DNA of 64,000 nucleotides from Tremella fuciformis (taxonomy: Eukaryota > Basidiomycota > Tremellomycetes > Tremellales > Tremellaceae): positions 992,001 to 1,056,000 of the forward strand of contig CP136491.1 in assembly GCA_032768795.1 (NCBI GenBank), written 5' to 3'. Position numbers and translations under genes: made by a program. Below are positions 591 through 49,132 of this stretch, in pieces. Every line of letters begins with the position of its first letter. Positions within the stretch are counted from its first letter, which is position 1. The notes beneath the pieces are model-generated. The model had not been told where the DNA came from, did no database searches, and was given only the letters and a program-made list of their open reading frames with translations.

Positions 591-2671
591 ATGGCGTACT
601 CTCTTCTCCTCCTAGCATTATGGGTAGTGGTCAAGTCCACTGCAGTAGGACTGGTCGGTGCCATTGCGGTCCTGCTCACGTATATCAGCGTCCAATCTAC
701 CTACGCCTACTGGGCCTCCCGTGATCTTCGCCAACTATATGGTGAGTCACATTTGTGGCTCTGGTTCACAAAGCCGACAGATAGGTCCCCCATCAGACTC
801 GCTGCTCAAAGGCAATCTCGGCACAGTGCTCGGTGCGCCTGCCGATCGGTTCCAAAAGAACTGGACCGAGCTGTACGGCCCAACTTTCCGGTACACCGGC
901 TTCTTTTGTCGCCCACAGCTGTTCACCTCGGACCTGAAGGCCATCGCGCACATCTATGCACACGCAGATATCTTCGACCGGGCCGCTCAGTCGCGCCGAC
1001 TCTTCCGGACCCTCACGGGCACATCGCTGCTTGCAGTGGACGGCGAAGATCACCGGCGCATGAAGCGAGTGATGAGTCCTGCATTCGGTGCCCAAGCGAT
1101 CAAGGAGATGCTGCCTGTCTTTTACGCCAAAGCGGGTGCCCTTGTGGCGAAGCTCGAGCGGTTGGCGACTGTTGGTGAGGCTTCATCGGTCGAATTGAAC
1201 ATCTCGCCACTCGTGAGCCAGACGACAATGGATATCATTGGCAAGGCGGGCTTTGGACTTGATCTGAATGCCATGGAGGAGGGCAAGGAGCATGAGTTGC
1301 TGCGCGCGTGGAATCGCTTGACGGAAGGGAAACGCGTGCGGAATCTGGTCAATATACTGTCTTTCCTTGGCGTCCCGCACACCGAGTATCTCGTGGTGTG
1401 TCTTTCAATCAGCATGCCAGCATGAACTGATCCCAGTGGTCTGAGCAAGCCAGGCAGACACTCGACGCTTCCAACTCACTCTTCCGCATCGTTGGTGTGA
1501 GCTGTGCCTTCACCAGGGAAATGGCTGCAGGCTGACGTCCAGGATCTTGTCCGACGACGCAAAGCGGAAATTGCGGCAGAGTCAGTGGGCGAAATCCGGA
1601 AGTCTGACTTGGTCGGGCATGACCTCATGACCACTATGCGTGAGTGAGACATGGCCTGTGGGACTAGTGTAGATCACTCACTGCAGTTCGAGCCAACATG
1701 GCGAACGATCTTCGAAACGAACAACGCATGTCTGACGAGGAGGTCGTATCCCAGGTCCCGCTCTTCGTGAGGCGTCGTTGGACGTTGTGGGTAGCGCTGA
1801 TTTCCGGCTGCTCGCCGGTAATATTACCATGTCGTCTATCATCACTTGGTCACTCATCATGCTCGCCCAGTATTCAGGAGTACAGGCTCGCCTTCGGGAG
1901 GAGGTCGACGCCGTTGTAACCGAGCCTGACTTGCAAGTCGTTTCGCCACGTTTGCAACACGGAACCGAGCTGACGGACAGGGACACCCTGAACAGTCTCC
2001 CATACCTCGACGCATTCGTACATGAAATACTGCGAACCCACTCTCCCAACGGTCTGCAGCTGCGGGAAGTCTACGCAGACGCTACCGTCCCCCTCGGAGA
2101 TCCTGTACGAGGACGGAATGGCCGCCTACTCGAGACTCTTCGCCTGACCAAAGGCACCACCATCCTCGTCCGTGAGTGTCGGTTCGACCGGTCGTTGCTC
2201 GTGACCGAGATTGTGACTGATCCAAAGCCACCCTCTTGCTGAACACTAGCCCGGAGATCTGGGGTCCGGACGCGACCATCTTCAACCCTGAGCGTCACCT
2301 GGACCCGCATACCGCTGGTGTTGGCGAGAAATTCATTCGCACGCCTGGTCTTTGGGGAAACATTATGACCTTTGGCGGGGGACACCGTTCCTGCGTGTGA
2401 GTCGGGGTATGCCCACTAAGCATGACTGACGGTCCAAGTGGCTATCGTATGGCTCTGCTGGAGCTCAAAGCGGTGCTCTTCAAAGTTGTCCGAAACTGCG
2501 AGGTGTCTGAGACCAGCGCGCGGCCCGAATTTGAGAGAGGGACGGGGTGAGTCATCTGATGGTGAGGTGGATGGTGAGGCTTGCTGATGGACCAGACCCG
2601 GCATCAACGAGGCCCGAGCGAAGGACAAAAGCATCGAGGGAGTGCCACTTGTCATCCGAGTGCTGACATGA
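591..2671 (+). CDS. Cytochrome P450 monooxygenase, multi-exon
   Basis: Haem-thiolate monooxygenase, probably anchored in the endoplasmic reticulum by the N-terminal hydrophobic helix (MAYSLLLLALWVVV). Seen directly: a helix-C region (GEDHRRMKRVMSPAF), an I-helix version AGNITMS, the K-helix ExxR in HEILRTH, and the haem loop FGGGHRSC whose Cys is the axial haem ligand. The start at 591 gives the membrane anchor and joins in frame to exon 2 across intron 742-796. About six further introns follow (for example 1396-1436); the haem loop is cut by an intron directly after the Cys-Val codons. The stop is at 2669-2671. The order of motifs and overall size fit a complete fungal P450. The substrate cannot be inferred: no biosynthetic partner genes lie next to it. 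Exon borders between about 1480 and 1830 are the least certain. Confidence 0.88.
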
Positions 2672-30531: not shown

Positions 30532-33500
30532 ATGCCATCTGTGCAGACGGTGAAAGAGGAGCGCAAGCTCAACGGGCGCGACAACTACGCCCAGTGGGTG
30601 CGCGAGATTCGAGTCGTCCTCGGATCCGCCGGTCTCGTACCCCACATCACCAAGGACGCGTCAGCGATTCGGGCACTCGTCGAGGCTCGATATCCAGTGT
30701 CAAGTCCGGCGACAGCAGCCGAGACATCAAAGAGAGCAGTTGCTCTATACGAGCATGAGAAGGAGCAGTCCACCGCCCTCTCCACTCTCTATGGCAGTCT
30801 GACAGAGACTGTCCAAAACAAGCTTCCCTCGAACCTGATCGACTTCGAGAATCCTCAACCGAAGGGGCTCTACGATCATCTGGTCACCACATATGGGGCC
30901 GACAACGGATCTCGCCTAGCCGAATTATGGTCATCGATATTTGGCGAGACCATCCCAGAGAATGAGGACCCCGAACCTCATCTCACAGCTATCCGGTCGC
31001 AACTGGCCGAAATCACCTCCTCCGCCATCACTTCCAAGCTCACCCTTGAGCAATTTGCCAACCAGATTGGCGCATACGCCGCCATCCGTCGCCTACCGTC
31101 CTCATACGGCCTCCTCGCATCGACCTTCTACTCAGGGACCTCGTCGAACAAGATCCACCTCGACGAGGTTATCGATAGGGTCGCCGATGAACATCGCAGA
31201 CGTCAACAAAAGGGCGAGAGCGTAAACGAGATGGGGATGCTCAGCAAATCCCTGCAGAAACCGGCAAGCAAGAGATGCATCCACCATCCGGATCAGGGGA
31301 GACACTCCACAGATGAGTGCTGGAAAGTGATTGGAGTGCCGAAGCACATCCAGGAGCAAAGGTCGGCCAGGGAAGCAGCCAAGGGAAGGAAGCAGGGAGG
31401 ACAAGCGAAGAAGGCAAGAGAGCAGATGGAGTCAGAGGATGACTCATCGAGTGAGAGCAAGAGAGGCTCGTCGAGGGAGACAAAGGAGGAAGGATATTAT
31501 GCGACGGAGATTGCACTACACGCCAACGACAACCTCCCATCCACCTCCATCATCATCGACAGCGGTGCCACCAGTCCATTCATCAAGGACAAGCACCTTC
31601 TCTCACATCTCACCAAACTCGACAAGGCCGTCAAGATCCAAATTGGAGACGGATCGATTGTCGAAGCTACACACTCCGGCCGCCTCACCTTCAACAACGT
31701 ATGGTACAACAACGCCCTCTACGTTCCATCATTCTCGCACAACCTCCTCTCAACACAGCGCCTCGGTCCGTACACAGGGACACACTGGCGCTTCTCGAAG
31801 GACTCGGCTACATTGGTCGAGAAAGGGAAGGTCATCCTCCGGGGAAAGAAACTTGGCAACCTATGGGTTGTAGACGACACACCGGTACGCACCACCTCGC
31901 GCATTCACCGAGCACTTCAGGCAATAGAAAACACTGAAGCCGAAGACACTCGCCTCCTCACCTGGCACAAACGCCTAGGTCACTCGAACATGAGGAAGGT
32001 GTGGGAGCTCGGGAAAGAGGGGAAGCTAGGCGCAAAGTGGACAGGGTCATTTCGGAGAGTCGAATGCATGGATTGCCTGAAAGGGAAGGCAACGCGCTCG
32101 GCATCTCTACCTAACCCTCGTCGAGCCAGCAAGCCCCTCGTCGAGGTATCAGTCGATCTATGGGGACCAGCAACCGTCCAGTCGAGAGAAGGCTTCCAAT
32201 ACTTCCTCACCTGCTATGACGACCACAGCAAATACGTGCAGGCCATACCACTCAAGAAGAAGTCGGATGCAGCCGAAGCACTGCAAGACTATATCAAGTT
32301 GGCAGAGAATCAGCTTGATCGAACAGTCAAGACCATCCGCTCAGACCAAGGAGGCGAGTTCACGAGCAAGGAATTCAGCCACTGGTGTAAAAGCAAGGGA
32401 ATTGAGCATACCCTCACGCCGACCGACGCACACAATCAAAACAGTCGAGTCGAGCGCGTCCATCTCACCATCCTCAATGACATCCGCACATGTCTCGCGG
32501 ACTCGAACCTGTCAAGTCAATTCTGGGTCGACGCATTACGATATGTAGTCTTCACCAGAAACAGGCTACCAGACTCCCAAGGAAAAATCCCTGTCGCTCT
32601 CTTTCGACCACATCACGACATTGACATACGATATGAAGGAATGCAGCCATTTGGCCAACACTGCATCTATCGAGTTGTGAGCCCCGCATCAAAGCTCGAC
32701 GAGCGGGGTCAATGCGGTCGACTGCTGGGATACACAGAAGGGAGCTGGGGCTACAAGGTGTTGACCCAAACCAACAGGGTCATCGCAAGTCGGGACGTTA
32801 CATTCATCACGGGCAAGAAGACAACGCCACGTTCAGATGAACCGCGACGGATTCTGGAGCCGCCTCAACCTGAACCTCGACAAGCATCGACGAGCCTCGA
32901 CGAGGATGACGATACATCAATCGAGCTGAACGAGATAGTCGAGGCAGGGGAGGCACCAGAAGAAGAGGAACAAAGGGAAGAGATGGACGACATACCTCCC
33001 CAAGCCGTGCCAAGGCAAGGGAGAGGCTGGGCCAACGAATACATTCGAGAGGATGCACCGAGCCCAGAACCGAACCCCGACGACGGACCAGAGGATCCAG
33101 ATCGTCGGCTAAACCAGCCCATAGAGGCCGATGCAGATGAACCAAGACGGTCCGGGAGACTAGCAGGTCAAGAGCCCAGTCATCACCCTCTGCACGACAT
33201 CGACATGGACTATAACCGAGTAGCCATCGAGCACGCGTTATCAGCCCAGTCACTCACCAACCCTCAGTCATACACCGAAGCTCGTCGAGCTGCAGACTGG
33301 GAGGAGTGGAACAGGGCCATGGACGAGGAGATGACAAAGATGGAGAAATACGGAGTGTGGGAGAAAGTCCCCAGAGAGAACCACCGCACCCTTACAGGCA
33401 AATGGGTCTTCACCCGCAAAATCGACGGGGACACGGGCAAAGCAAGCCAATACAAGGCTAGATTCGTCGTGAGAGGGTTCCAACAAGTCTCAGGACGGGA

Positions 33501-34824
33501 TTTCGACGAACTCTTTGCATCGGTCACCCACAAGTCTTCATTCCGCCTATTCCTCACCATCGTTAACTACCTCGACTGGGAATGCGACCAAATCGACATC
33601 ATCGGCGCATTCCTCAAGGCCAACATCGACAAGGACATCTTCATCGAGCCACCAGAAGGTAGCGACATCGCTGCCGATCACGTCCTGCACCTCCGGAAGT
33701 CATTATACGGTCTCCGACAATCACCGCACTTGTTCAACAAGCGCCTCGACGAGTTCCTACGGGAGCTAGGCTTCAAACCAACCCTAGCGGACCCATGCAT
33801 CTACTCGCTGCGACAAGGACACAAGCGGTGCATGATCTCAGTCCATGTTGACGACATGCTCATAGCCGGCAACGATCGATCAACAATCGACGAGATCAAG
33901 CGGAGGATCGACAAGGAACTTGAGTGCAAGGATCAAGGACCGGTCTCATACTTCCTCGGTATCAACATCTACCGAGACAGGCCAAACAAGAAGATGTACC
34001 TATCACAAGAGCACTACATCGAGGCAGTTCTTCAACGCTTCGGTGAAACCGGGAAAGCCTGCAAGACAATCTTGCCAGACGCAAAGCTCGTCGAGGCTAC
34101 GCCAAAGGAGGTCGAGGAGGCTCGAGACAAACCGTTTCCTGCACTCGCCGGGTCAATCCTCTATATCGCCACTATCACCCGACCCGACATCGCCTACGCA
34201 GCCTCACTGCTGTGTCGCTTCATAAGCAAATGGTCACTCGCGCATTGGAGGGCCGCAAAGCACCTACTGAGGTATCTTCGAGGAACCTCGGATCTTGCTC
34301 TCACCTTCGATGCTCATGGAGGGAGACGAGCACTGTTGGGATGGGCGGACGCAGACTGGGGTGGATGTCTCGATACACGCCGATCAACAACTGGCTATAT
34401 CTTCAACACCTACGGAGGCATCGTATCATGGAAAAGCAGGCGACAACCGACAGTCGCACTGTCAACGACACAGGCAGAGCTCCTTGCATCGACAGAAGCG
34501 GGCAAAGAGGCAATATGGCTCAGGCAACTATTGAACGACCTCGACCTAGGCATAGATGGAGCAGTGCCCATCTACAACGACAACAATGGGGCCATTCAAC
34601 TGGCCAAACATCAACACGGGTTCAAGTTGAACAAAGCATTCGACATGCGAGCCCAGTGGATACGAGAGCATCAAGCTGGTGGTCTGCTTGAGCTCAAATA
34701 CACACCAACGGACAGCAATCGAGCCGACATCCTGACCAAGACCCTTTCGGCCGAGAAGACAAGACAGCTCCGGCAGTTACTGGGATTGGAAAGACAAGGA
34801 GAAGGAGGGCAGATGAGTCAATAG
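30532..34824 (+). CDS. Copia-B gag-pol polyprotein
   Basis: Single frame of 1430 residues starting at the first ATG after the leader. Domains in order: gag-like N-terminus (about 1-250) with a His/Cys motif; aspartic protease IIDSGATSPF (about 343); integrase HHCC zinc motif and catalytic core (DLWGPA, DDHSKY, SDQGGEF, about 480-680); reverse transcriptase with WVFTRKIDGD, DIIGAFLKANID and the catalytic VHVDDMLIAGND (about 960-1115); RNase H with WADADWGGCLDTRRSTTGY and STTQAELLAST (about 1265-1310). Integrase before reverse transcriptase is the Ty1/copia order. All catalytic motifs are intact, so the element could be active. A Glu-rich linker lies between integrase and reverse transcriptase. 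Confidence 0.96.
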   Translation: MPSVQTVKEERKLNGRDNYAQWVREIRVVLGSAGLVPHITKDASAIRALVEARYPVSSPATAAETSKRAVALYEHEKEQSTALSTLYGSLTETVQNKLPSNLIDFENPQPKGLYDHLVTTYGADNGSRLAELWSSIFGETIPENEDPEPHLTAIRSQLAEITSSAITSKLTLEQFANQIGAYAAIRRLPSSYGLLASTFYSGTSSNKIHLDEVIDRVADEHRRRQQKGESVNEMGMLSKSLQKPASKRCIHHPDQGRHSTDECWKVIGVPKHIQEQRSAREAAKGRKQGGQAKKAREQMESEDDSSSESKRGSSRETKEEGYYATEIALHANDNLPSTSIIIDSGATSPFIKDKHLLSHLTKLDKAVKIQIGDGSIVEATHSGRLTFNNVWYNNALYVPSFSHNLLSTQRLGPYTGTHWRFSKDSATLVEKGKVILRGKKLGNLWVVDDTPVRTTSRIHRALQAIENTEAEDTRLLTWHKRLGHSNMRKVWELGKEGKLGAKWTGSFRRVECMDCLKGKATRSASLPNPRRASKPLVEVSVDLWGPATVQSREGFQYFLTCYDDHSKYVQAIPLKKKSDAAEALQDYIKLAENQLDRTVKTIRSDQGGEFTSKEFSHWCKSKGIEHTLTPTDAHNQNSRVERVHLTILNDIRTCLADSNLSSQFWVDALRYVVFTRNRLPDSQGKIPVALFRPHHDIDIRYEGMQPFGQHCIYRVVSPASKLDERGQCGRLLGYTEGSWGYKVLTQTNRVIASRDVTFITGKKTTPRSDEPRRILEPPQPEPRQASTSLDEDDDTSIELNEIVEAGEAPEEEEQREEMDDIPPQAVPRQGRGWANEYIREDAPSPEPNPDDGPEDPDRRLNQPIEADADEPRRSGRLAGQEPSHHPLHDIDMDYNRVAIEHALSAQSLTNPQSYTEARRAADWEEWNRAMDEEMTKMEKYGVWEKVPRENHRTLTGKWVFTRKIDGDTGKASQYKARFVVRGFQQVSGRDFDELFASVTHKSSFRLFLTIVNYLDWECDQIDIIGAFLKANIDKDIFIEPPEGSDIAADHVLHLRKSLYGLRQSPHLFNKRLDEFLRELGFKPTLADPCIYSLRQGHKRCMISVHVDDMLIAGNDRSTIDEIKRRIDKELECKDQGPVSYFLGINIYRDRPNKKMYLSQEHYIEAVLQRFGETGKACKTILPDAKLVEATPKEVEEARDKPFPALAGSILYIATITRPDIAYAASLLCRFISKWSLAHWRAAKHLLRYLRGTSDLALTFDAHGGRRALLGWADADWGGCLDTRRSTTGYIFNTYGGIVSWKSRRQPTVALSTTQAELLASTEAGKEAIWLRQLLNDLDLGIDGAVPIYNDNNGAIQLAKHQHGFKLNKAFDMRAQWIREHQAGGLLELKYTPTDSNRADILTKTLSAEKTRQLRQLLGLERQGEGGQMSQ

Positions 34825-35166: not shown

Positions 35167-37558
35167 CAACCAAAACAGTCGAGTCGAGCGCGTCCATCTC
35201 ACCATCCTCAATGACATCCGGACATGTCTTGCGGACTCGAACTTGCCAACCCAGTTCTGGGTAGATGCACTGCGATATGTAGTCTTCACTCGGAACAGGC
35301 TACCAGGCTCCCACGCGAAAATCCCGATAACGCTCTTCCGACCAAACCACGACATCGACCTGCAGTACCAGGGGATGCAGCCATTCGGCCATCACTGCAT
35401 CTATCGAGTTGTGAACCCCGCATCGAAGCTCGACGAGCGGGGACAATGCGGTCGACTGCTGGGGTACACAGAAGGGAGCTGGGGCTACAAGGTGCTGACC
35501 CAATCCAACAGGGTCATCGCAAGCCGAGACGTCACATTCATCACGGGCAGGAAGACAACGCCCAGTTCAGATGAACCACGACAGACCCTGGAGCCGCCTC
35601 AACCTGGACCTCGACAACCATCGACGAGCCTCGACGAGGATGACGATACATCCATCGAGCTGAACGAGATAGTCGAGGCAGGGGAGGCACCAGAAGAAGA
35701 GGAACAAGGGGAAGAGATGGACGACATACCTCCCCAAGCCGTACCCAGGCAAGGAAGAGGCTGGGTCAATGAGTACATCCGAGAGGATGCACCGAGCCCG
35801 GAACCGAATCCCGACGACGGACCAGAGGATCCCGATCGTCGACTAAACGAGCTCACAGCGGCCGATGCAGATGAGCCAAGACGGTCGGGGAGACTAGCGG
35901 GCCAAGAACCTAGTCATCACCCTCTGCACGACATCGACATGGACTATAACCGAGTAGCCATAGAGCACGCGTTATCAGCCCAGTCACTCGACAACCCCCA
36001 GTCGTACACCGAAGCTCGTCGAGCCGCAGACTGGGAGGATTGGAAATCGGCCATGGACGAGGAGATGGGAAAGATGGAGAAGTACGGAGTGTGGGAGATG
36101 GTTCCCAAGGAGAATCACCGCACTCTTACAGGCAAATGGGTATTCACCCGCAAGATCGACGGGGACACAGGCAAAGCGAGTCAGCACAAGGCCAGATTCG
36201 TTGTGAGAGGATTTCAACAAGTCTCAGGACGAGACTTCGACGAACTCTTTGCTTCGGTCACCCACAAGTCATCATTCCGCCTGTTCCTCTCCATCGTCAA
36301 CTACCTCGACTGGGAATGCGACCAAATAGATATCATTGGAGCATTCCTCAAGGCCAACATCGACAAGGACATCTTCATCGAGCCACCAGAAGGCAGCGAC
36401 ATCGCCGCCGGACACGTTCTGCACCTCCGGAAATCACTATACGGTCTCCGACAATCACCGCACTTGTTCAACAAGCGCCTCGACGAGTTCCTACGGGAGC
36501 TAGGCTTCAAACCGACCCTAGCGGATCCATGCATCTACTCGCTGCGACAAGGACACAAGCGGTGCATGATCTCAGTCCACGTTGACGACATGCTCATAGC
36601 CGGCAACGATCGATCAACAATTGACGAGATCAAACGGAAGATCAACAAGGAACTCGAGTGCAAGGACCAAGGACCGGTCTCTTACTTCCTCGGTATCAAC
36701 ATCTACCGAGATAGGTCAAACAAGAAGATGTACCTGTCACAAGAGCACTACATCGAGGCAGTTCTTCAACGCTTCGGTGAACCCGGCAAAGCCTGCAAGA
36801 CAATCTTGCCTGACGCAAAGCTCGTCGAGGCTACGCCAAAGGAGGTCGACGAGGCTCGAGATAAACCATTTCCAGCACTCGCCGGGTCAATCCTCTATAT
36901 TGCCACGATCACCCGACCCGACATCGCCTACGCAGCATCACTGCTCTGTCGCTTCATCAGCAAATGGTCACTCGCACATTGGAGGGCCGCAAAGCACCTA
37001 TTAAGGTACCTGCGAGGAACATCAGATCTCGCACTCACCTTTGACGCACATGCAGGAAGAAGAGCACTGCTAGGCTGGGCAGACGCAGACTGGGGTGGAT
37101 GTCTCGACACACGTCGATCTACAACCGGCTACGTCTTCAATACATACGGGGGCATTGTGTCATGGAAAAGCAGGCGACAACCGACAGTCGCACTCTCGAC
37201 GACACAGGCCGAACTCCTAGCATCAACAGAAGCGGGCAAAGAGGCAATATGGCTCAGGCAATTATTGAACGACCTCGACCTCGGTATAGATGGGGCAGTG
37301 CCCATCTACAACGACAACAATGGAGCCATTCAACTGGCCAAACATCAACACGGGTTCAAGCTGAACAAAGCATTTGACATGCGAGCCCAGTGGATACGAG
37401 AGCATCAAGCTGGTGGACTGCTTGAGCTCAAATACACACCAACGGACAGCAACCGAGCCGACATCCTGACCAAGAACCTTTCGGCCGAGAAGACGAGACA
37501 GCTTCGGCAGCTACTGGGCTTGGGAAGACAAGGAGAAGCAGAGCAGCAGAGTCAATAG
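35167..37558 (+). pseudogene. Copia-A gag-pol, second part (integrase end, RT, RNase H)
   Basis: Resumes at NQNSRVERVHL and carries integrase C-part, reverse transcriptase (VHVDDMLIAG) and RNase H (WADADWGGCLD) to the stop at 37558. It differs from Copia-B at many more positions than the first part does, for example GSHAKIPITLFRPNH against DSQGKIPVALFRPHH. Confidence 0.93.
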
Positions 37559-37900: not shown

Positions 37901-38402
37901 CTCCGAGGCCTTGTCGCTCGTCCCAGAGACACAGGAAGACGCCTGGGAACTTGCGGACGATGAGGACGACTTTGGGCCGGTCCGTCCGATCACAAACCTA
38001 GCTCACGCACGGATCATCGTCCCGCCTCAAGCCACCGAGGCTGCAGCCGTCTCTCTGCTCCGCCGGACTGCTCTGGAGCACGGCGTATGTGTCACGACTA
38101 AGGCCAGCCACCCAGCAAAGGGGATCCGCTACATGTGGTGTCATTCCTCGGGTCAACACCGCTCGGCCAAGCTTCCGCATGTCCAGAGACTGCGGACACG
38201 AGATGTCAGAACGCGAAAGACGGGATGCCCGTTCCGTGCGACCGTGAGGCGCACGGAAGACACGCACGGAACGCGATTCGTGGTCGAAATCACCTGCGAT
38301 CAGCACAATCACGAGCGGATCGATCCAGCCTTAATTGCCCATGTCCGGCGAGAGACGAGGACGCCCGAAGTAGCCTTGGCGATCGAGAGGCTAGTGGACA
38401 AG
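37901..38402 (+). pseudogene. MULE transposase, segment 2 (zinc-binding DNA domain)
   Basis: Continues the MULE frame with SEALSLVPETQEDAW. Contains TGCPFRATVRR and CDQHNHE, i.e. a C...C...HxH arrangement as in FAR1/WRKY-like domains found at the N-terminus of MULE transposases. Broken at 38402 (VDK) by the Ty3 element and resumes at 47315. Confidence 0.88.
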
Positions 38403-39174
38403 TGTCAGACCTGTACCCGGTGACCTGTATTAGATCCAACTAAAGCTCACCTAAATCAATCTATCGGTTCAAGCTGCTAACTATTAACGACTATTCGTAA
38501 CAGATAGTAACGAACAAGAGTAGAGTGGAACCAAGCTGGGTGAGGAGCGATCAAGACTCACTTCACTTATCTATCTCTCGTCACTGGTACGGTCGATTCT
38601 CTAAGTAGACGTTCTATCTAGAGGACTAGTTAACTAGATCGCTGAGGAACTTCCTCTGCGATCTTCCTTCTTAAGTATCTGCTGACTCTCGCCCGCTCTC
38701 ACTCTGATCCTTCTAGCATCGTCCTTCGTGGATCGTTCCATCGTTCTCCTAGTCGCTTCTACTCGTTCCCAATACTCTCTAGTATTCTCTCGTCGTCTCT
38801 CTTCTCTTCTATCGTCTTCTCTCCGCGCTGGCTTGCATCTAATCTCCTTGCGTGCCCGTCGTCGTCCTTATCGTCCTCGGTCTCCGCCCCGTGGCCCTGA
38901 CTGTGAGATAACTCTATCCTCCGTTATCGTGGACCTGACTCTTGTCCTTGCGTGCGTTCCTATCTCAACTCGGCCGATGGAAGACTGAGACGTATCCTTC
39001 TATCGTTCTCCAGGTTGTTCCAGCGCTTTCAAGAGCAAGTCGTAGTTATTCGTGACTAATAGTGACGGTTCTATCGTACTCACGTTCTTCGGTTCGTAGG
39101 ATCCTTTGGATGTTTCCGTCGGAAGTTGCCTCGTGGTAGTCTCGTGGTCAGGATGCCGTGTCGGTTTCCTGACA
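38403..39174 (-). repeat. Ty3 element LTR (3' LTR in the element's sense)
   Basis: 772 bp. Carries ACTATTCGT / TAACGAA motifs near both ends and TAACTAGATCGC at 38631-38642. Confidence 0.95.
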
Positions 39175-39485
39175 CTCCTCCCTCCTTTACATCATGAGTC
39201 CCTTCATGATAAGATTAGTCGCGACTGATTTTTATTTGTTCTTGATACCGCCTATCGGTTGTCGCTTATCGTCCCGTTGCCTAGCAACGACTTTCTACAT
39301 GTCGAGCATCTGCGAGTTGTCACCCTAGTTGCCTAGCAACCGCTCGCTCTTGCGCCTGCCTCATACTCGTTTTTACTCGTAACGCCGTTTTGCCGATAGA
39401 CGCCCGCAGGATACATAAGGGCGTGACTGCGCCCTCTCGTTGTTCGTTCGTACATCTACTTTTCTTGACCTTTGGCGTACCCCCT

Positions 39486-40845
39486 ATGGCCCGCTCTCGC
39501 GCATCCGCCCAACGACGTGTGAGTACTCGATCATGTTCGTGGCTATTACTGACCAAGAGCATAAGGGACGCTTCACGCGCAAGTCCACCTCGCCCGCTAT
39601 GACGCCCCTGCCTGAGTTGGACGAGTTGGCTCCGTCAAACGAAACCCGACAAGATCTCACCCAGATGGATGCGGACCCGAGTGAGTTACTACTACTCGCT
39701 CGTATTTGTCACTAATAGCAGATGAGACACCTGCCCTCCCCACTCTCTCGGATGGAGAAGGCGTCACCCAGCCTCTCGCCCCCGCCGATACCGTCTCAGC
39801 TCCCGCTGCTCTCGAACGTGCCCCCACTGCCCCTCTGAACACCGCCCAAGACAAGACTTCGTCGCCCGCCCCGGAGGTTGACAACAAATCCGAAGGTGTG
39901 TTTGTTTTCTTGTATTCGTGTGTATTCGTTCCTAATAGTTTCCAGATGGATCCGAGACTACTGATCCCGAGGGTAACGTCGATGAAGACCCTAGTAAGTC
40001 GTTCCTATTCGATTTTATCCGCAACTAATAGCAGCCTTCCTTCTTTCCTCCGATCCCCCCGCCATCGAAGACGAGCTGGACTCGTCGGAGACAGAGTCCG
40101 AACCCCCTCGCAAGAAGGGTTCCAAGGGGAAAGGGAAACAACGCGCCATTGTCGATACTCCTATTCGCGAGCTCGACGAGACCAAACCCATTCCGTCCAC
40201 TCCGGAATCAGTTGATCCCGACGAGATCCTGGCCATTGTGAGTAGTTTCTATTCGTTACGAATAGTAACTAATTGTAGGACTATGCCACGTTCATGTCAG
40301 CCGCCCACGCGAGTCAGACCCCGTCTAAGTTTGTTCCGAAGGCAAGTGATCTCGTACTGTTTGGGGTTAATAGTAACGAATAGTCCCACACTGTCGATGT
40401 CCCCCCGCCCTACAAACGGCCGTCCGAACTTAAGGCCGGTGAGGCGCCGCCCAAGCGTGCTGCTCGCGGCACGCGCCCACTTTCAAATGAGAAGTTCGCC
40501 GAACAGCAAAAATATCCGGTCTCGGTTCCACCGTGCCGAGGCTGTCTCAAGGCCAAGCTTGTTTGTCGAGTCAAGCCAGGCTCAATTCGCTGTGCTGTGT
40601 GCACTTCGGCATGTTCTTTCTCAGACCCCGCGCCTTATCTTCAGGTTTTACGAGAGCATTTCCTTTCCCTCAAGGAAGGTCTGAAGGGACTCGAACGCGC
40701 TCGATTGAATTCGTCTACCTCCGGGACAGTCACTATCCCTGCGGGCACTTTTGCGGACATACATTCGCGCATTTCCCAGATAGGTGAAGCCGAGGCAGCT
40801 GTTCGTACTTTGGAGTCGCTGAAGAGGAAGAATAGGGAAATGTAG
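39486..40845 (+). CDS. Antisense spliced gene in the chromovirus; Cys-cluster protein
   Basis: Seven exons join in phase: 39486-39516, 39558-39680, 39722-39895, 39946-39993, 40035-40237, 40279-40341, 40384-40845 (1104 nt, 367 residues). Introns are 41-50 nt; six are GT-AG and the sixth (40342-40383) starts GCAAGT, a GC-AG intron. Most end in TAATAG-type sequence. The protein starts MARSRASAQRQHKGRFTRKS, has an acidic Pro/Ser-rich middle (ETPALPTLSDGEG, DELDSSETESEPP), a basic KKGSKGKGKQR, then a cluster PPCRGCLKAKLVCRV... with Cys at 265, 268, 275, 284, 287 and 291 (CX2CX6CX8CX2CX3C), close to but not identical with fungal Zn2Cys6, and a helical C-terminus (LREHFLSLKEGLKGLERARL). Probably nuclear and DNA- or RNA-binding. 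It runs opposite to gag-pol, so splice sites are silent in genomic RNA, which would let introns survive transposition. No homologue recognised. Confidence 0.8.
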
Positions 40846-40912: not shown

Positions 40913-43900
40913 TTACTGACGACTTCTTAGATTATGCCTGTGCCCGGTCTCTTGCCTGACTGACTCTTGAGTTCGTTGTCGTTTGTTAGGTCGTATAGGC
41001 TCTTCTTTGTCGCTATTTGTCTTTATTCGTTTTGAATAGCTCCTATCTTTCTTGATTCCTCCGAATGTGTGACCAATGGGCTTGTCGGGGTGTCGCTCGT
41101 GGAATGTTCTTACAACCTCTGCCGCGTTTCTGACGTTCACCTCCGGCTCCCAGCCCACTTCATCGTCCCCGTAGCCTCTCCACTCCACTAGGTACTCGAC
41201 TTTCCCATTCCTTGTTCTTCTTGAGTCCAGAATCCTCTCGACTTCAAATTCAGCATCAGGCTCCACTATAGTTGGTAGTCCTTGTGGTTGCCCTTTTGGT
41301 CGTATTCGTTTGTCTTCGACGCTAATAACGTCCACAGGATGCAGTCTGGACACATGAAAAACATTGTGGATCTTGAGCGTCGCTGGTAACTTCAATTTCT
41401 TCGCGTGTGTTCCTATTGATTCTTCCACCTGGAAGGGTCCATCTCGCCTGTAGTCGAGTTTCTTGCTGGGTCGTTTCGTGTTAAGGCCCTCGAGGTCCAA
41501 CATGACATAGTCTCCGTCCTTGATTTCGACCTGCGGCTGGTGCTTCCTGTTGTAGTACTTCTCCATTTCCTTTCCTGCTCGTACATAGTTCTCCCTGCAG
41601 ATTGAGTGAACTTCGTTCATTGAGTTCGCACGTTGTCTTGCTTGCTGGTTGTCGACTTTATTCGGTTCTAATATTTCCTGAACCCATCTAGGATGAAATC
41701 CGTGTAGCGCATAGAACGGGGTCATTCCTATCGTATCGTGATGGGCGTTGTTGATGGCGAACTGGGCGAATGCCAACAACGGTGCCCAGTTGTCCTGGTC
41801 GAAGTTGGTGAAGATCCTCATGAATCCCTCTACCTTCTGGTTATGTCGCTCGGTTTGACCATCAGTCTGCGGCCTTCTTGCCGTACTGAGTGCCAATCGA
41901 ATGTCGAATTGCTCCGTTAGACTCCTCCAGAAGTCTGATACAAATTTACTTCCCCTGTCAGATACAATCGTGCTCGGCAGTCCGTATCTGGAGAAAACCG
42001 TATCGAATAGTAACGAACACATTTCGGGTGCGTTCAACTTTGTTACCGTGGGTATGAGCACTGTGTACTTTGTCAAGCGGTCGACCACTACTAGTATTGA
42101 ATTGAAGTTGTTTGAGACTGGCAGCTCTTCGATGAAGTCCATCGTGATGTCCTCGAACGGTAGGCGTGGAACTTCCAAGGTTCGTAGCTGACCTCTTGGT
42201 CTCTGGTTGAAAGGCTTGGTGCGCAGACAGGCTGTGCAGCTCGACACGTACTTGGTGACGTGCGCAGTGAGCCCAGGCCAGTAATAGTCCCGTTGAACCG
42301 CCTTCATAGTCCTTTTAACTCCTGGATGTCCTGCCAACGGAGTGTCGTGTCTTGAGTTTATGATCTTGAACCTCAAATCATCGTAGTCTGGGATATAGAT
42401 TTTGCCGTCGATGCGGATGAATCCTTGTTGGTCTATTTCGACTCTAGTATCGCTTGATAGTCGCAATTCGTTCCTAATATCTTCGAGCGGTTTCTGTGCG
42501 GCAATCCCTTCGATGACTTGCCTGCACTGCTCGTCCTTCATATACCCTTCCCTTACTCTGCTTCCATCGATGATCCAATCATACGTGTTCGGGTCTGCTG
42601 TACTGGGTGATTCGGTCGTTGTAACCCCATACATTTCAAGGGGTTCCTGGTCTTCGACGATTGAAGCTGTCTTCTTTGACTCTTCTAAGTTCGTCACTAT
42701 TTGGTCCAATTCGTTCTCAGCATCGATTGTCTCGATCACCTGTCGAACCTTTGAGTCCGTTTGGTAACTGTCACCGCCTCTTGTCCCTGCCAGGTCAGGT
42801 CGTCTCGACAGGGCGTCTGGTACCACGTTGCCCTTACCTGGGGTGTACACTATTCGTAGATCGAAGCGAGCCAGGATCTCTGCCCATCTGGCCTCCCTGT
42901 TTGATACCTGCTTCGGCATGGTATACCCTATCAAGGGCTGATGGTCGGTAACAAAGATTATTGGCCATTTGCTGCCCTCGAAATATGCTCGATGATGTTG
43001 TAAGCAATAAATAATTGCGAATAGTTCTTTCTCGGTGACAGTCCAGTTCTCCTCACTCGGTTTGAGCCTTGCTGAACCATAATGGATTGCCGTTCGCTTC
43101 ATGGTGTTGCGATCCACATGGTAGATCACATACCCAATGGCGAAGTCCGAGGCATCCGTGTGTACCTCTATCGGGAGCTCTGGATCGAAGTGCCCGAGAA
43201 TAGGCGGTGATGATAGGGCACCTTTCAGCGACTGAAATGCCTTGTCAGCCTCTTCGTTCCAAATAAACCTTGCTTTCTTCGACATCAACTTGTTGAGAGG
43301 TCTCGCAATTCCCGAGAAGTTGGGTACAAATCTTCGGTAGTAACTGAAAAGACCCACCGCAGATCGTAGTTCCTTCTGTGTAGTCGGGATAGGGAAGTTC
43401 CTAATAGTTTCTGTTAGTCCTTCGTCGGTTGCTATCCCCTCCGCAGACACCCTGTGTCCTAAGAATGTAATGCTGTCTTTCTCGAACTCGCATTTTGCTG
43501 CTTTTAGTCGAAGCTCCCATTGTCGTAGTATATCGAAGACTGTCTTGGTAAGAGCTCGAAGTTCTTCAACCGTTTTCGCGTAAATGAGAATGTCGTCGAT
43601 ATATACGTAGACACCTTTCCCTATTAGTTCCGAAAATATATCGTTCATAAAATGTTGGAACGTTGCGGGAGCCCCTTTTAGGCCATCCCTCATCACAGTG
43701 GACTCGAACATACCAAAGATAGTCCTGAACGCTGTCAGGTGTTCGTGTCCTTCAGCCATCCGCACCAGCTGATAGGCCCCTGCCAAATCCAGCTTCGTGT
43801 AGAACCGTGCGTCACGTAGATCTGCCAAGATCTGCGAGATTAATGGTAACGGATAGGCGCTATTTACTGTGGCTTCATTTAGCTTGCGATAGTCCACGAC

Positions 43901-45406
43901 TAGTCGTAAGCGTCCGTCTTTCTTCGGGACAAAGAACGCCGGCGATCCATAAGGTGATAACGAATGGTATATCTTTCCTTCCGCCTTCTCCTTTTCCAAG
44001 TATTCGTGTAAGGCGTTCTTTTCTTTCGGAGATAGTTGATAGAGAGGAGCAAGAGGCAGCTTACCTCCCTCCTTTAGTTCTATCCTGTGGTCGTACTGTC
44101 GATGTGGCGGCAGCGCTGCCGACCCACTCGGTTCTTCAAACAAGTCTTCCCATCCTTGGTAGGCCTCTGGAATCTTGCTTTCCTTTGCCGAAGACTGTTC
44201 TTTCTCGTTCAAGGTCGTGTACGAGTCGCTCTCACTGGCGGTTACTCCGTTCACCTCTACCCTTGTTTGGTCGTATTCTTTCTCCTCAAGTGCTATTCGT
44301 CCCCATTTGTTCCAAATAGTCACATCTTGCAAATCTTCGATTGCCGTCCAGTCCTCCGGATCGGTTCCGGCTTCATCCTTGCCGTATTTGTAATCGTCGT
44401 AGATTCCACTAGAATCATCGCTTGACTCATCATTCATCGTAGAAGGGTCACTGAGTACGGGAGTCCCGTCTTCCGTCCCAGCCCTTTCAAGAGGATCGTC
44501 CGCCATTGGCGCTTCTTCGTAGCTATTCGTTTCTGTTGCTCCTTCGCCATCGTTGCTTATTCCGGCCTCACCAGAACCTTCCTGGGTTACTGAGATCGGT
44601 CTCCATCGATTGCCGCTTTCCGCGATCTCGATGTTGTTGGGATAGGTCGTCCCGGACGCATAGGGCTTCCTGTAAGCCTTCCCTTTTCGTCTGTGTGGTT
44701 TTCTCACCACAGGAGTGCACGGGAACTCAGCCCATCCATGCCTCGCATCAATGGTTACTCCGTTCTCGGCCATCCACGGCCATCCCAATACAATGTCGGC
44801 CCCATTTAATTCTGTCACAAGCAATTTGACATCTATTGGGGGATATTCGGGATGAAGTTGGATGTTCGTGTCGATATAGGTGTGAACCAGACCAAACGCG
44901 CTTGTACGTCCATCAAACATTACTACGTGTTTGGGTCGTTCGATCACGGTGTGGTTTAAGGTCTGGGCTATCTCTGACCTCCAGTCGACAAAGCAGGAGC
45001 TGGCTCCAGTGTCGAACAGGATGTTGGAGAGATATCCTTGTCGGCAATATAAGGAAGGGAATCCGCACTGGAGCTTTGCCCGGCCGCCAGTTAGGAGTAC
45101 CCTCAATCGTAGATTCTCGGTCATGTTATCGTAGCATACAATTGATCTTTTTGGTAGTAGTTCGTCCCCAATAAATTCTGTTCCGTTATAATTCTCGAAT
45201 GCCGCACCTAGAGTGAGAGGTTTGTTTGAGCCCCGACTCCCTCTCAATTCGACGGGGCGCTTACTTTTGACTGTTGCGAGCTCGTAGAAGGGGTCGTGGT
45301 ACGCTGGTAGGTGTTCGTAGCATTGGAAGAGACCACCGTTCCTTGAGATCGCGTCGATTGCGAACAGTCCTTGGCCTGATGACCACTCTGTCCGCAGGAA
45401 AAGCAT
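40913..45406 (-). CDS. Ty3 chromovirus pol polyprotein
   Basis: 1497 residues from the first ATG of the frame (45406). Domains: protease LFDTGASSCF (about 128), reverse transcriptase with LVVDYRKLN, FTKLDLAGAYQ-like TKLDLAGAYQLVRM and the catalytic YVYIDDILIY, RNase H TDASDFAIGY, integrase HHCC zinc motif (HPGVKRTM ... CTACLRTK) and core (DFIEELP, VSDRGSKFVSDFW, ARRPQTDGQTER), then a chromodomain (FEVERILDSRRTRNGKVEYL with VEWRGYG) near residues 1380-1430. Integrase after reverse transcriptase plus chromodomain place it among fungal chromoviruses (Tf1/sushi-like). The frame overlaps gag by 163 nt in the -1 register; how it is expressed is not visible (a CAAAAGT stretch and a GTAAGC donor-like site lie in the overlap). 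Confidence 0.95.
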   Translation of the reverse strand: MLFLRTEWSSGQGLFAIDAISRNGGLFQCYEHLPAYHDPFYELATVKSKRPVELRGSRGSNKPLTLGAAFENYNGTEFIGDELLPKRSIVCYDNMTENLRLRVLLTGGRAKLQCGFPSLYCRQGYLSNILFDTGASSCFVDWRSEIAQTLNHTVIERPKHVVMFDGRTSAFGLVHTYIDTNIQLHPEYPPIDVKLLVTELNGADIVLGWPWMAENGVTIDARHGWAEFPCTPVVRKPHRRKGKAYRKPYASGTTYPNNIEIAESGNRWRPISVTQEGSGEAGISNDGEGATETNSYEEAPMADDPLERAGTEDGTPVLSDPSTMNDESSDDSSGIYDDYKYGKDEAGTDPEDWTAIEDLQDVTIWNKWGRIALEEKEYDQTRVEVNGVTASESDSYTTLNEKEQSSAKESKIPEAYQGWEDLFEEPSGSAALPPHRQYDHRIELKEGGKLPLAPLYQLSPKEKNALHEYLEKEKAEGKIYHSLSPYGSPAFFVPKKDGRLRLVVDYRKLNEATVNSAYPLPLISQILADLRDARFYTKLDLAGAYQLVRMAEGHEHLTAFRTIFGMFESTVMRDGLKGAPATFQHFMNDIFSELIGKGVYVYIDDILIYAKTVEELRALTKTVFDILRQWELRLKAAKCEFEKDSITFLGHRVSAEGIATDEGLTETIRNFPIPTTQKELRSAVGLFSYYRRFVPNFSGIARPLNKLMSKKARFIWNEEADKAFQSLKGALSSPPILGHFDPELPIEVHTDASDFAIGYVIYHVDRNTMKRTAIHYGSARLKPSEENWTVTEKELFAIIYCLQHHRAYFEGSKWPIIFVTDHQPLIGYTMPKQVSNREARWAEILARFDLRIVYTPGKGNVVPDALSRRPDLAGTRGGDSYQTDSKVRQVIETIDAENELDQIVTNLEESKKTASIVEDQEPLEMYGVTTTESPSTADPNTYDWIIDGSRVREGYMKDEQCRQVIEGIAAQKPLEDIRNELRLSSDTRVEIDQQGFIRIDGKIYIPDYDDLRFKIINSRHDTPLAGHPGVKRTMKAVQRDYYWPGLTAHVTKYVSSCTACLRTKPFNQRPRGQLRTLEVPRLPFEDITMDFIEELPVSNNFNSILVVVDRLTKYTVLIPTVTKLNAPEMCSLLFDTVFSRYGLPSTIVSDRGSKFVSDFWRSLTEQFDIRLALSTARRPQTDGQTERHNQKVEGFMRIFTNFDQDNWAPLLAFAQFAINNAHHDTIGMTPFYALHGFHPRWVQEILEPNKVDNQQARQRANSMNEVHSICRENYVRAGKEMEKYYNRKHQPQVEIKDGDYVMLDLEGLNTKRPSKKLDYRRDGPFQVEESIGTHAKKLKLPATLKIHNVFHVSRLHPVDVISVEDKRIRPKGQPQGLPTIVEPDAEFEVERILDSRRTRNGKVEYLVEWRGYGDDEVGWEPEVNVRNAAEVVRTFHERHPDKPIGHTFGGIKKDRSYSKRIKTNSDKEEPIRPNKRQRTQESVRQETGHRHNLRSRQ

Positions 45407-46488
45407 AAGCCCGAATCCCTTCGTCTCTGCTTCTCGAACTCACTCAGGCGTGGTCGCATACCCAGGCCCGCAAATGGGTTGCCATTCCATGGGGTGGTCG
45501 CACGCGGTGGCTGAGTGCTCTTGACTGTGCTGGTTTCTGATGAGCGGTTAAAACTGGTAACGGTTGGTCGCACTCGCCCACTATTCGTCTCTATTTGTCG
45601 TTGTTCGTGCCTCTCTGGGCGTCCTTGTTCGTTCTTCTTCTCTTGTTCCCGCTCGAACATGCGTTCATCAAGTCTCGTGATCACCGTGACAAAGTCGTTC
45701 CAGGTCTTAGGGATTTCCTCCACCTTGGTAGCGATGGCGTCCTTGAGAGAGGGCTTCAAGCCTTCCCTAGCCTTGGCGATGAGGACCGAATCGGGCCAAT
45801 CCAGCAATGATGATAACTGTTCGAACTCTGCAAAGTAATTCGTAACAGAAGACTTTTGTTGGATCGCTAATAGTTTCCGTTCGGCTGTATGAACTTCATC
45901 TGGATCTCCGTAGGTTCGTTTGATGTGTTTGATAAACAACCCGTAATCGTGAAGCCATCTAGGCTGATCGTCGACATCCTTAGCTAAGTGCGCCTCAATA
46001 GAGTGCAATGGCGCCTTCCTAAAGAACGATATCATATATCGGATCTTGGCATAGTCGGTGGCGTATCGGGCTGGTTGTAAGTCGAAGACCAGCTGACACT
46101 GCGTCAGGAATCCGGTGAGCTTGTTCCTTTCTCCTTGATACTCGTCCGGAGAGTTGACCTTTGGTTCCTTGTTGTTCGATTTGTTCGTATTAGTCTCGAA
46201 TTGGTTCACTCGATGCTCAGCCATCATCCTTTGATTCTGACTCAACAGCAATAGTGCCTCACCAATCTTATCGAGTTGGGTCCTGATCGAAGAGAGCCCA
46301 TCATCCTGGGTAGACTCCATCGTGTCTTCTTGAGCGCCTGGCTCGTACACGCCTGGCGTACCTTGGGCTCCTTCTCCTTCCTCCGTGGTAGTCCCAGTGG
46401 GAGGAGTGATCAGCTCATGCTCTGCGTCGGGATTGCCTGTCGCGCCTCGGTTCCTAAGGCCGTACCCGGTCGTAGGTGCAGAGGACAT
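45244..46488 (-). CDS. Ty3 chromovirus gag
   Basis: 414 residues, ATG at 46488, about 50 nt after the 5' LTR. A retrotransposon gag capsid region (FLTQCQLVFDLQP, FAEFEQLSSLLDW, SLKDAIATKV) is followed by a CCHC zinc knuckle CFSCGQSGHQAKDC for RNA binding. Ends inside the pol frame. Confidence 0.93.
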   Translation of the reverse strand: MSSAPTTGYGLRNRGATGNPDAEHELITPPTGTTTEEGEGAQGTPGVYEPGAQEDTMESTQDDGLSSIRTQLDKIGEALLLLSQNQRMMAEHRVNQFETNTNKSNNKEPKVNSPDEYQGERNKLTGFLTQCQLVFDLQPARYATDYAKIRYMISFFRKAPLHSIEAHLAKDVDDQPRWLHDYGLFIKHIKRTYGDPDEVHTAERKLLAIQQKSSVTNYFAEFEQLSSLLDWPDSVLIAKAREGLKPSLKDAIATKVEEIPKTWNDFVTVITRLDERMFEREQEKKNEQGRPERHEQRQIETNSGRVRPTVTSFNRSSETSTVKSTQPPRATTPWNGNPFAGLGMRPRLSEFEKQRRRDSGLCFSCGQSGHQAKDCSQSTRSQGTVVSSNATNTYQRTTTPSTSSQQSKVSAPSN

Positions 46489-46523
46489 GTCGTCTTGATT
46501 TGGTGGCTTGTCGAAGGATATGA

Positions 46524-46535
46524 GCGATCTAGTTA
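46524..46535 (-). promoter_or_regulatory. Putative self-priming site of the chromovirus
   Basis: Two bases after the 5' LTR the sense strand reads TAACTAGATCGC, the exact reverse complement of GCGATCTAGTTA in the sense LTR (46766-46777). A 5' end of genomic RNA folding onto this site would prime minus-strand DNA, as in Tf1. Confidence 0.55.
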
Positions 46536-46537
46536 TC

Positions 46538-47309
46538 TGTCAGACCTGTACCCGGTGACCTGTATTAGATCCAACTAAAGCTCACCTAAATCAATCTATC
46601 GGTTCAAGCTGCTAACTATTAACGACTATTCGTAACAGATAGTAACGAACAAGAGTAGAGTGGAACCAAGCTGGGTGAGGAGCGATCAAGACTCACTTCA
46701 CTTATCTATCTCTCGTCACTGGTACGGTCGATTCTCTAAGTAGACGTTCTATCTAGAGGACTAGTTAACTAGATCGCTGAGGAACTTCCTCTGCGATCTT
46801 CCTTCTTAAGTATCTGCTGACTCTCGCCCGCTCTCACTCTGATCCTTCTAGCATCGTCCTTCGTGGATCGTTCCATCGTTCTCCTAGTCGCTTCTACTCG
46901 TTCCCAATACTCTCTAGTATTCTCTCGTCGTCTCTCTTCTCTTCTATCGTCTTCTCTCCGCGCTGGCTTGCATCTAATCTCCTTGCGTGCCCGTCGTCGT
47001 CCTTATCGTCCTCGGTCTCCGCCCCGTGGCCCTGACTGTGAGATAACTCTATCCTCCGTTATCGTGGACCTGACTCTTGTCCTTGCGTGCGTTCCTATCT
47101 CAACTCGGCCGATGGAAGACTGAGACGTATCCTTCTATCGTTCTCCAGGTTGTTCCAGCGCTTTCAAGAGCAAGTCGTAGTTATTCGTGACTAATAGTGA
47201 CGGTTCTATCGTACTCACGTTCTTCGGTTCGTAGGATCCTTTGGATGTTTCCGTCGGAAGTTGCCTCGTGGTAGTCTCGTGGTCAGGATGCCGTGTCGGT
47301 TTCCTGACA
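46538..47309 (-). repeat. Ty3 element LTR (5' LTR in the element's sense)
   Basis: 772 bp, matches 38403-39174. Must hold the gag-pol promoter; ATACTTAAG on the sense strand lies about 30-40 nt before the predicted RNA start near 46778. Confidence 0.95.
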
Positions 47310-47314
47310 ACAAG

Positions 47315-49132
47315 CGAATGTCCAATGAGGACATCATCACCGCCTTGTCAGAGTCATTTCCCGAGGTCATACAGACCCCGAAAGACATCGCGAATTTCCG
47401 TGCGCGTTACCATCACCGCAGAATGGGCGGCCTATCAGCTACGCAGTATCTCGTAAATCGCCTGCGGGACGACAAGGAACTCTATCGTTGCTTCGCGAAC
47501 TCTGCTCGACAGACCGTCGGGTTCGCATACATGACACCGTCGTCCCGTGCGCTCTTTCATCGCTTCCCGACAGTGCTCTCTATCGATGACACCTACTCGA
47601 CAAACCAATACGGTTTGCCCTTGCTGCACATCACTGGGTTCACCTCCACCAACAAGACCTACACGGCGGCCGTCGTCGTCATCAGCCGCTCGACTAAAGA
47701 GTGGTATACCGAGGCTTTAGAGAGCTTTATTGCTCTGGCAGGGCGTCCCAAACGTTCCGTGCGCGTTATCCTCAAGGATCGTTGTCCCCGCATCGCCGCC
47801 GCCGCCAAGACGGTCTTTCCCGATGCGCAGCAGCTGCTCTGCATTTGGCACCTGCGAGAGAACGTAAAATCGAGTCTGGCTCGTTGGCGATGCTTCGACG
47901 ACGATCCCGAGGCCCGACAGGCCAAGTCAGCCTTCGGGACGATGTGGATGGACAAGGTGGTCCGTGCGAAGACCGAATCAGCCTTGCAGGCTGGGATGGC
48001 GGAAATGCGGGCCAAATACAGCGACCCAAAATTCAGCCACACCCTTCGCATGCTCGACGGCCTGCTCCTGTCGAAGACCCAATGGGCCCACGCATACACA
48101 AACCAGTTCTGCAACCTTGGGCAACATAGCAACTCGAGGAACGAGGGAGAACATTCAGCTCTGAAGCACAGCCTCAGAGAACCGTCGAGCGACATGTACG
48201 ATCTCATCATGGGCGTCCGAGCCTTTATGCAGCGGCAATTTCGAGATCTCAAGCAACAAGACGGCCATGAGCGGTCATACAGCCAAAAGCCCGACAAGAT
48301 GTTCGAGAACCTGAGCCGACAGTGGTCCGTGCATGCCTATAACCTCACCTACGCGCAGCTACGCAAGGCTAGCGCAGCCCAGAGGCAATCTACCGAGCTA
48401 GAACCGTGCACAGGACGGTTTACCGCCTCCATGGGTCTTCCGTGCGCACACCGCCTAAGAGAACTGCTCGAGGCCGGTCAGGTCTTATCTATCTCCGAAA
48501 TCCACATGCAGTGGAGGCTAGCTCAGCCCGGAGAATGGGAAACCCGTCTCAAAGACTCGATGTCCCAAACCGTCGTTCCCGCCAGCGGCGTGCGAGCGCT
48601 TGGGGACGACTTTGAGCCGCCACAACCGTCCGGTCTGTTACTGGACCCAAAGACAAACCTAGGGCTCCGTGCGCGTCGTAATGCAGCGTCGGCCGCACGG
48701 ATCCTCGCAGTTGTCCGCCCTGTGGCCACCAGAGGATCGATCTTGAACCCCATACCGCTTCCGGACACCCTGGAACGGCCAGGACAACCGTCGCAGTCTG
48801 GTCCCTCTCGAACACCGCTCAGCGGCCGCCTCCTGACCGAGTCAGAGAGGCTCAATGGGCTAGCTAAGCCCATCAATCCTCAATGCGAAGCGTGTCGCAA
48901 GCGTCACAAGGCCTCATACCAATGCTTAGCCCGTCGGACGGCCCTGCAGACCGAGCTGGAGGTGGCCAGGCGGCGTATCGCGACGGCAGAGCAGCGGGGT
49001 GAGCTAGAATTGGCTCGAGAGCGAGAGCAGGCCGCTAGCCAGGCTGGGACGTCGGCGACGATGCAGGGGCCGGTCCCGACGGGCAGAGTGACAGCGACAA
49101 CGGGTCATATGACGGTGAGCTCGCGATCATGA
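47315..49132 (+). pseudogene. MULE transposase, segment 3 (DDE catalytic domain and SWIM)
   Basis: Resumes at RMSNEDIITALSESF in frame with segment 2. Shows the MULE catalytic pattern: VLSIDDTYSTNQYGLPLLHI (first Asp), VILKDRCPRI...PDAQQLLCIWHLR (second Asp), and SNSRNEGEHSALK (Glu), then a SWIM-like zinc motif CTGRFTASMGLPCAHRL and a C-terminal QCEACRKRHKASYQC cluster with a helical tail. The stop at 49132 may be bypassed by an intron starting GTGAGC near 49113, leading to a Pro/Gln-rich tail (to 49577). Segments 1 to 3 add to 841 codons without a stop. Confidence 0.92.

Follow-up and report, generated by a model that had tools for sequence, protein, structure and literature searches.

The 64,000-nucleotide stretch of the Tremella fuciformis genome analysed here (assembly GCA_032768795.1, contig CP136491.1, positions 992,001 to 1,056,000 of the forward strand; hereafter called the window) harbours a Ty3 chromovirus whose gag and pol genes lie on the minus strand. 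On the opposite strand, a seven-exon gene coding for a protein with a six-Cys cluster spans positions 39486-40845, between pol and the 3' long terminal repeat (LTR). This gene had been proposed by inspection (hereafter called the original prediction), and we followed up that proposal computationally. The antisense gene and the element that carries it comprise the following features.

39486..39516, plus strand: exon 1, with the start codon (exon-chain search, copy comparison)
39558..39680, plus strand: exon 2 (exon-chain search, copy comparison)
39722..39895, plus strand: exon 3 (exon-chain search, copy comparison)
39946..39993, plus strand: exon 4 (exon-chain search, copy comparison)
40035..40237, plus strand: exon 5, with a basic stretch RKKGSKGKGKQR (exon-chain search, charge profile)
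40279..40341, plus strand: exon 6, followed by a GC-AG intron (exon-chain search, copy comparison)
40384..40845, plus strand: exon 7, with the six-Cys cluster, the C-terminal part and the stop codon (exon-chain search)
40534..40614, plus strand: six-Cys cluster CRGCLKAKLVCRVKPGSIRCAVCTSAC (sole match to the Cys pattern in the six frames of the window)
38403..39174, minus strand: 3' LTR, 772 bp, with TG...CA ends (exact match to the 5' LTR)
40913..45406, minus strand: pol, 1497 aa, with reverse transcriptase, RNase H, integrase zinc binding, rve, SH3 and chromodomain domains
45244..46488, minus strand: gag, 414 aa, with Retrotrans_gag and CCHC zinc knuckle domains
46538..47309, minus strand: 5' LTR, 772 bp (0 mismatches with the 3' LTR)

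We supplied an exon-chain script with the exon lengths of the original prediction, GT or GC donors and all AG acceptors 40-109 nt away. With these fixed lengths, exactly one chain yields an open frame, and its seven exons join as had been proposed into 1104 nt, i.e. 367 codons and a stop codon. The introns are 41, 41, 50, 41, 41 and 42 nt long; the first five are of the GT-AG type, and we add as a detail that the sixth is GC-AG. The coordinates of the exons, LTR and pol also bear out the antisense location, with 67 bp between the stop codon of the gene and the end of pol in a tail-to-tail arrangement. No open reading frame of at least 100 aa is listed for the unspliced minus strand between 38312 and 40913. 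A 54-nt stretch covering an exon-intron boundary and the intron recurs with 63-70% identity at introns 2, 4 and 5 (39668-39721, 39981-40034 and 40225-40278), perhaps as a result of branch-site constraint or intron duplication.

The element combines reverse transcriptase, RNase H, integrase and a C-terminal chromodomain in one pol, and its two LTRs are flanked by a 5-bp target duplication (ACAAG, 38398-38402 and 47310-47314). With its identical LTR pair, it is a young Ty3 chromovirus.

Searching the genome (28.1 Mb, 11 contigs) yielded 27 DNA matches to the region, including that of the window. Exon 7 is encoded at 22 places (E <= 3.2e-89), one of which has a stop codon. Copy comparisons were performed with the 21 other copies of this family, called F1, to the exclusion of the window itself (L002) and of two short 5' fragments (L047 and L048). 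In 15 of the 21 copies, the gene is uninterrupted from start to stop and every splice dinucleotide is intact, and all splice dinucleotides are the same as in the window in 19 of them. The exon frames are thus conserved among copies, one of the checks suggested in the original prediction. Its coding frame runs antisense in the interval separating pol from the 3' LTR, and most copies of the family retain it. In these respects, the gene is of the aORF-3R type described for plant elements.

Because most F1 copies are near-identical, selection must be read from the diverged ones. The original prediction had proposed to compare nonsynonymous (dN) and synonymous (dS) divergence between copies. Relative to the window gene, the two most diverged copies have NG86 dN/dS ratios of 0.22 (L044; dN 0.125, dS 0.576) and 0.24 (L045; dN 0.043, dS 0.181), i.e. 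not near 1, and the observed synonymous counts were reached by 0/1000 neutral reshuffles of the same changes for L044 and by 0/1000 for L045. For closer copies, 5/1000 (L040) and 14/1000 (L042) reshuffles did so. We detected no synonymous excess in the two other same-strand frames or in two of the three reverse frames. The third reverse frame also has an excess, albeit smaller, with 85 synonymous changes for L044 vs. 112 in the gene frame (0/300 shuffles) and likewise for L045. It is not excluded by the frame tests by themselves, but we attribute its excess to the third positions that it shares with the gene. Exon indels amount to +3 and -6 nt in L044 and to -6 nt in L045, the latter at the same place as that of L044, and these two might perhaps represent a single event. 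L045 also has a 1-nt insertion in intron 6.

A genome search with exon 7 returned two weak loci (E 0.0046 and 0.074). They define a second family (F2), in which an antisense gene occupies the corresponding position. The F1 and F2 integrase regions share 41% identity over 490 aa. As reconstructed in two copies, the F2 gene consists of four exons of 22, 318 or 384, 65 and 363 nt (the last including the stop codon), separated by introns of 44-56 nt; it is open throughout in L081 and has two stops in exon 2 in L079. The Cys-containing exon is open in all five F2 copies. Its dN/dS is 0.05-0.18 in nine of the ten pairs formed by these copies, with 0/1000 shuffles for each, and the tenth, near-identical pair is uninformative (ratio 0.36, 420/1000 shuffles). 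Using the F2 exon, we then found a third family, F3, at ten places (at least 91%). For three F3 pairs, the dN/dS values are 0.42, 0.27 and 0.22, and the observed counts were reached by 43, 2 and 0 of 1000 shuffles, respectively.

Profile-profile comparisons with hhalign gave probabilities of 94.6 for F1-F2, 97.6 for F2-F3 (over 101 columns, including the C-terminal part) and 74.6 for F1-F3, the last link being less firm than the other two. All ten aligned rows share the invariant residues P-C-X2-C-X6-C-X-V-X-P-G, followed by C-X2-C-T and the last Cys.

The original prediction had asked whether such genes always sit in chromovirus copies, which largely holds true in this genome, the only one searched. 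The Cys cluster is opposite the chromodomain strand at 20 of the 21 F1 loci located around a chromodomain, and the remaining one has a stop in the cluster. It is opposite the chromodomain in 5/5 F2 copies studied (two further matches are partial), and the antisense Cys-containing exon of F3 lies beyond the chromodomain at all nine places examined out of ten (eight by position and one by translation). Similar clusters also occur elsewhere, in four long open frames of 1763, 2023, 486 and 412 aa (C1:2593202-2593723, C8:43169-43585, C4:59332-59580 and C4:350527-351000, respectively). These frames could be other elements or host genes; the two largest have no RVT_1 match among the matches listed (150 of 339 candidates scored).

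In an integrase tree of 17 rows, F1, F2 and F3 fall on one side of a branch with 98/98 support (100/98 without the long A branch). We scored 150 of 213 candidates in a chromodomain search and surveyed nine other chromodomain groups, defined by score and frame length, over 1.2-1.5 kb beyond the chromodomain; several populous groups with chromodomain scores of 49.5, 45.9 and 44.9 bits are outside this survey. No Cys pattern was found in eight of the nine groups (12 loci). The ninth (L087) has two pattern matches in low-complexity frames, which we set aside as chance matches. As the F1-F3 integrases group together, the simplest history would be one acquisition of the gene in their common ancestor followed by descent with the element.

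We also identified a chromovirus outside the F1-F3 group, called F4 (C10:350050-351450, L098), with an antisense frame (862-1401, minus strand) 59 bp from the end of pol. Its cluster, CX2CX6CX8CX2CX6C, has true Zn2Cys6 spacing, and the frame has a charged, helix-like end. The F4 integrase groups with B and D (84/91 and 89/89), and F1-F3 are supported at 97/98 when F4 is added to the tree. We did not count F4 as harbouring the same gene, its hhalign probability to F1-F3 being just 18%. If it were counted as a carrier, the tree would need two trait changes instead of one.

In the predicted product of the window gene, a basic start is followed by acidic stretches, a basic patch, the Cys cluster and helices. 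The cluster, C-X2-C-X6-C-X8-C-X2-C-X3-C, has the spacing initially proposed and contains all six Cys residues of the 367-residue protein. The charge profile agrees with the acidic middle of the original prediction, with net charges of -6, -3, -6 and -11 per 30 residues over residues 31-150; the helical end comes only from a low-confidence model. The F2 product shares this succession of acidic region, basic patch and cluster, and its six Cys residues again all lie in the cluster.

Fungal Zn2Cys6 proteins (PF00172; GAL4 and PUT3 type) likewise have six Cys residues, with CX2CX6C and then CX2C. Their spacing is CX2CX6CX5-12CX2CX6-8C. In contrast, the last Cys spacing is 3 in F1 and 4 in F2 and F3, and the Zn2Cys6 spacing is found only in F4 and at the L096 locus. 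None of the four families matches the PF00172 profile at E <= 10, and the best candidate, L096, scores 8 bits for a cut-off of 21. The F4 frame compared with PUT3 gives non-significant scores (E about 1, third and fourth of seven matches). Given the last Cys spacing and these Pfam scans, the F1-F3 products are not members of that family by its criteria and may at most work like zinc-cluster transcription factors.

We found no match to the TRP28 domain (PF04195) in Pfam, and an SBDS_C match was rejected as below the cut-off (E 0.024 in two of eight members, and E 0.12). The sole match of a PDB profile search is an unrelated ATPase (E 0.15), and among 19 stretches that fit a pattern in an IMG/VR scan, none was confirmed. 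As a control for the protein database, residues 1000-1497 of pol retrieved 2227 proteins at E <= 1e-10. Among the best 120 of these, identities reach 48-51% over the C-terminal region, and the named relatives include those from Kwoniella, a Tremellales sp., Tilletia, Ustilago, Berkeleyomyces, Morchella, Haematococcus and frogs. The database therefore covers such elements, although short exons may be absent from its gene models.

Upstream of the antisense gene, we identified putative promoter elements.

39411..39419, plus strand: TATA-like ATACATAAG, 75 nt upstream of the ATG
39276-39288 and 39328-39340, plus strand: two identical 13-mers, GTTGCCTAGCAAC

The TATA-like sequence is identical in the diverged fragment L048, and a TATA-like box is present 120-121 nt upstream of the ATG in the two F2 copies whose whole gene was reconstructed. 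The 13-mers are palindrome-like and spaced by 52 bp (about five helical turns), and we take them to fit the X-box consensus of RFX proteins. In dinucleotide-shuffled versions of the window, the expected number of such sites is 0.16 on average, and at least two were found in 2 of 100 shuffles. Of 23 further F1 copies or fragments, 22 retain both sites; the stretch covered for L044 contains none. No such site was found at 11 F2 loci or at four F3 loci, the F3 sequence mostly stopping short of the upstream region.

From these data, we are almost certain that the antisense gene is real and protein-coding in this lineage, its splicing being deduced from sequence alone. As an explanation of the whole, we favour with reasonable confidence an accessory gene of the chromovirus lineage that would code for a nuclear, nucleic-acid-binding regulator of its own element. 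Among possible accessory functions, self-regulation is our best guess, and its chances are about even. Transcription would start from the gene's own promoter, adjoining the 3' LTR and opposite to gag-pol, and the host would splice the antisense transcript into one mRNA. The sense genomic RNA would run through the gene with the introns in the wrong orientation; they would thus not be removed and would survive each round of reverse transcription. The product would be targeted to the nucleus, bind nucleic acid and regulate the expression or the integration of its own element, working like the antisense protein HBZ of human T-cell leukaemia virus type 1 (HTLV-1), by analogy and not by kinship. HBZ is an antisense, spliced, nuclear bZIP regulator of a retrovirus, which shares this logic with the role proposed here; we claim no homology. 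More tentatively, a clade of fungal, probably basidiomycete, chromoviruses may have gained in a single ancient event an intron-rich antisense gene whose product is a zinc-cluster transcription factor. The gene would be expressed from a promoter of its own that responds to the host (and contains two RFX-type X-boxes in F1), and the factor would switch its own element on or off.

Several observations weigh against the favoured explanation. The probable DNA-binding role is predicted from just the motif and the charge. The cluster matches no Pfam family, a genome-wide Zn_clus search has no F1-F3 copy among the places listed, and the protein database returned nothing at E <= 1 for the full product (7998 candidates scored) or for an F1+F2 profile (4127 candidates). 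The structure model of exon 7 alone has a mean pLDDT of 50.5, too poor for a fold search, and outside the cluster the alignment of F1 to the other two families is difficult. Some F1 copies are damaged, with premature stops (L036 and L039), insertions (L043 and L045), a truncation (L046) or a diverged first exon (L044). The apparent 5-nt insertion in exon 6 of L045 is the overlap of the two pieces of that copy, which we read as the target duplication of its nested insertion. The dN/dS of pol is 0.066 for the same two diverged copies (leaving out two stops in the C4 copy), and the antisense gene, constrained as it appears from these comparisons, is evolving faster than pol. Finally, the signature of selection looks weaker and mixed in F3.

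Alternatively, the conserved protein might act at another step, as a nucleocapsid-like RNA chaperone, a nuclear import factor or integration-site tether, or an anti-silencing factor, which we find somewhat doubtful. Besides DNA, a six-Cys cluster flanked by basic stretches could also bind RNA, and chromatin targeting would be a natural theme for elements with chromodomain integrases. However, gag already contains a CCHC zinc knuckle, and the CX2CX6C...CX2C layout is closer to those of DNA-binding clusters than to knuckles. It is highly improbable that the antisense transcript itself is the effector, acting through RNA interference or by disturbing sense transcription, and that its coding capacity matters little. 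It would overlap the genomic RNA fully over 39486-40845 and could form double-stranded RNA, and roles of that type are discussed for plant elements (PMC7264820). Nevertheless, purifying selection on the amino acid sequence in F1, F2 and two of three F3 pairs speaks against RNA as the sole function.

The original prediction also considered a captured host gene, in favour of which our exon-by-exon searches, limited to the fungus' own genome, gave no positive evidence. Capture of a host transcription factor gene would account for the intron-rich, host-like structure, and the four similar clusters elsewhere in the genome remain candidates, but no clear host homologue came out of these searches, and the gene is common to three distant families grouped on the integrase tree, with selection in each. 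We thus regard this origin as improbable, and if it took place it would have been long ago. Chance might also be invoked, as the exons were picked by eye from antisense DNA without tools, and short exons and introns leave freedom in doing so. This explanation, to which we give a negligible probability, is refuted by the constraint on the spliced frame, by the conservation of its splice sites and by the recurrence of the arrangement in F2 and F3. An accessory protein that regulates its own element remains our preferred reading.

The claim that such a gene would be new for this group did not hold, as genes in antisense orientation at this position are on record for Boty, a fungal chromovirus, and for the plant elements Retand, Grande, RIRE2 and PvRetro13 (PMC7264820 and PMC11963269). 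The word 'intron' is absent from the main text of both papers, and HBZ is named in PMC11963269. Boty-like elements harbour a chromodomain and the gene brtn, according to PMC4227169 and PMC8365987. As described there, brtn is like the window gene in being an antisense gene of a fungal chromovirus and unlike it in having an ascomycete host, and the likeness is known from description rather than sequence. The plant aORF-3R genes are antisense at the same place, but their products have TRP28 or SMC domains vs. a six-Cys cluster here, and Retand belongs to a non-chromovirus lineage. The brtn gene of the Boty-like chromodomain Ty3 elements of Botrytis cinerea was reportedly described by Zhao et al. 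(Virology, 2011). Among the top-ranked papers listed by a literature search that left most subscription papers outside its reach, we found no report of an antisense gene in a basidiomycete chromovirus or of an LTR element encoding a Zn2Cys6 protein. What is new is therefore a multi-exon antisense gene with a cysteine cluster that marks a group of fungal chromoviruses; the antisense position was already known.

Gag and pol are usually regarded as the only genes that an LTR retrotransposon requires. Here, a six-intron gene whose frame is maintained by selection, and which has relatives in elements with just ~41% integrase identity (F1 vs. F2), indicates that these elements benefit from an accessory function, and its placement suggests that antisense orientation may let introns persist through reverse transcription. 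It offers a tractable non-plant case for addressing the function of antisense genes at this position. If the proposed role is correct, an LTR retrotransposon would encode its own regulator in a spliced gene, with a logic comparable to that of HBZ.

Other features of the window concern the element and its surroundings. Just past the 5' LTR, at 46515-46537 (sense GATAACTAGATCGCT), 13 nt are complementary to AGCGATCTAGTTA at LTR position 532, which presumably fits the self-primed reverse transcription of Tf1/sushi-type chromoviruses. The frame beyond the 5' LTR (47310-49132) contains a MULE transposase domain (PF10551), and a Pfam scan of that on the left side of the element (37911-38402) gave no match; the chromovirus seems to have inserted inside a gene with a MULE transposase domain. 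Further to the left, a 1430-aa frame (30532-34824) adjoins a shorter one of 771 aa (35243-37558). The DNA of both looks closely similar, and by reading we assign them to Copia-type elements in tandem.
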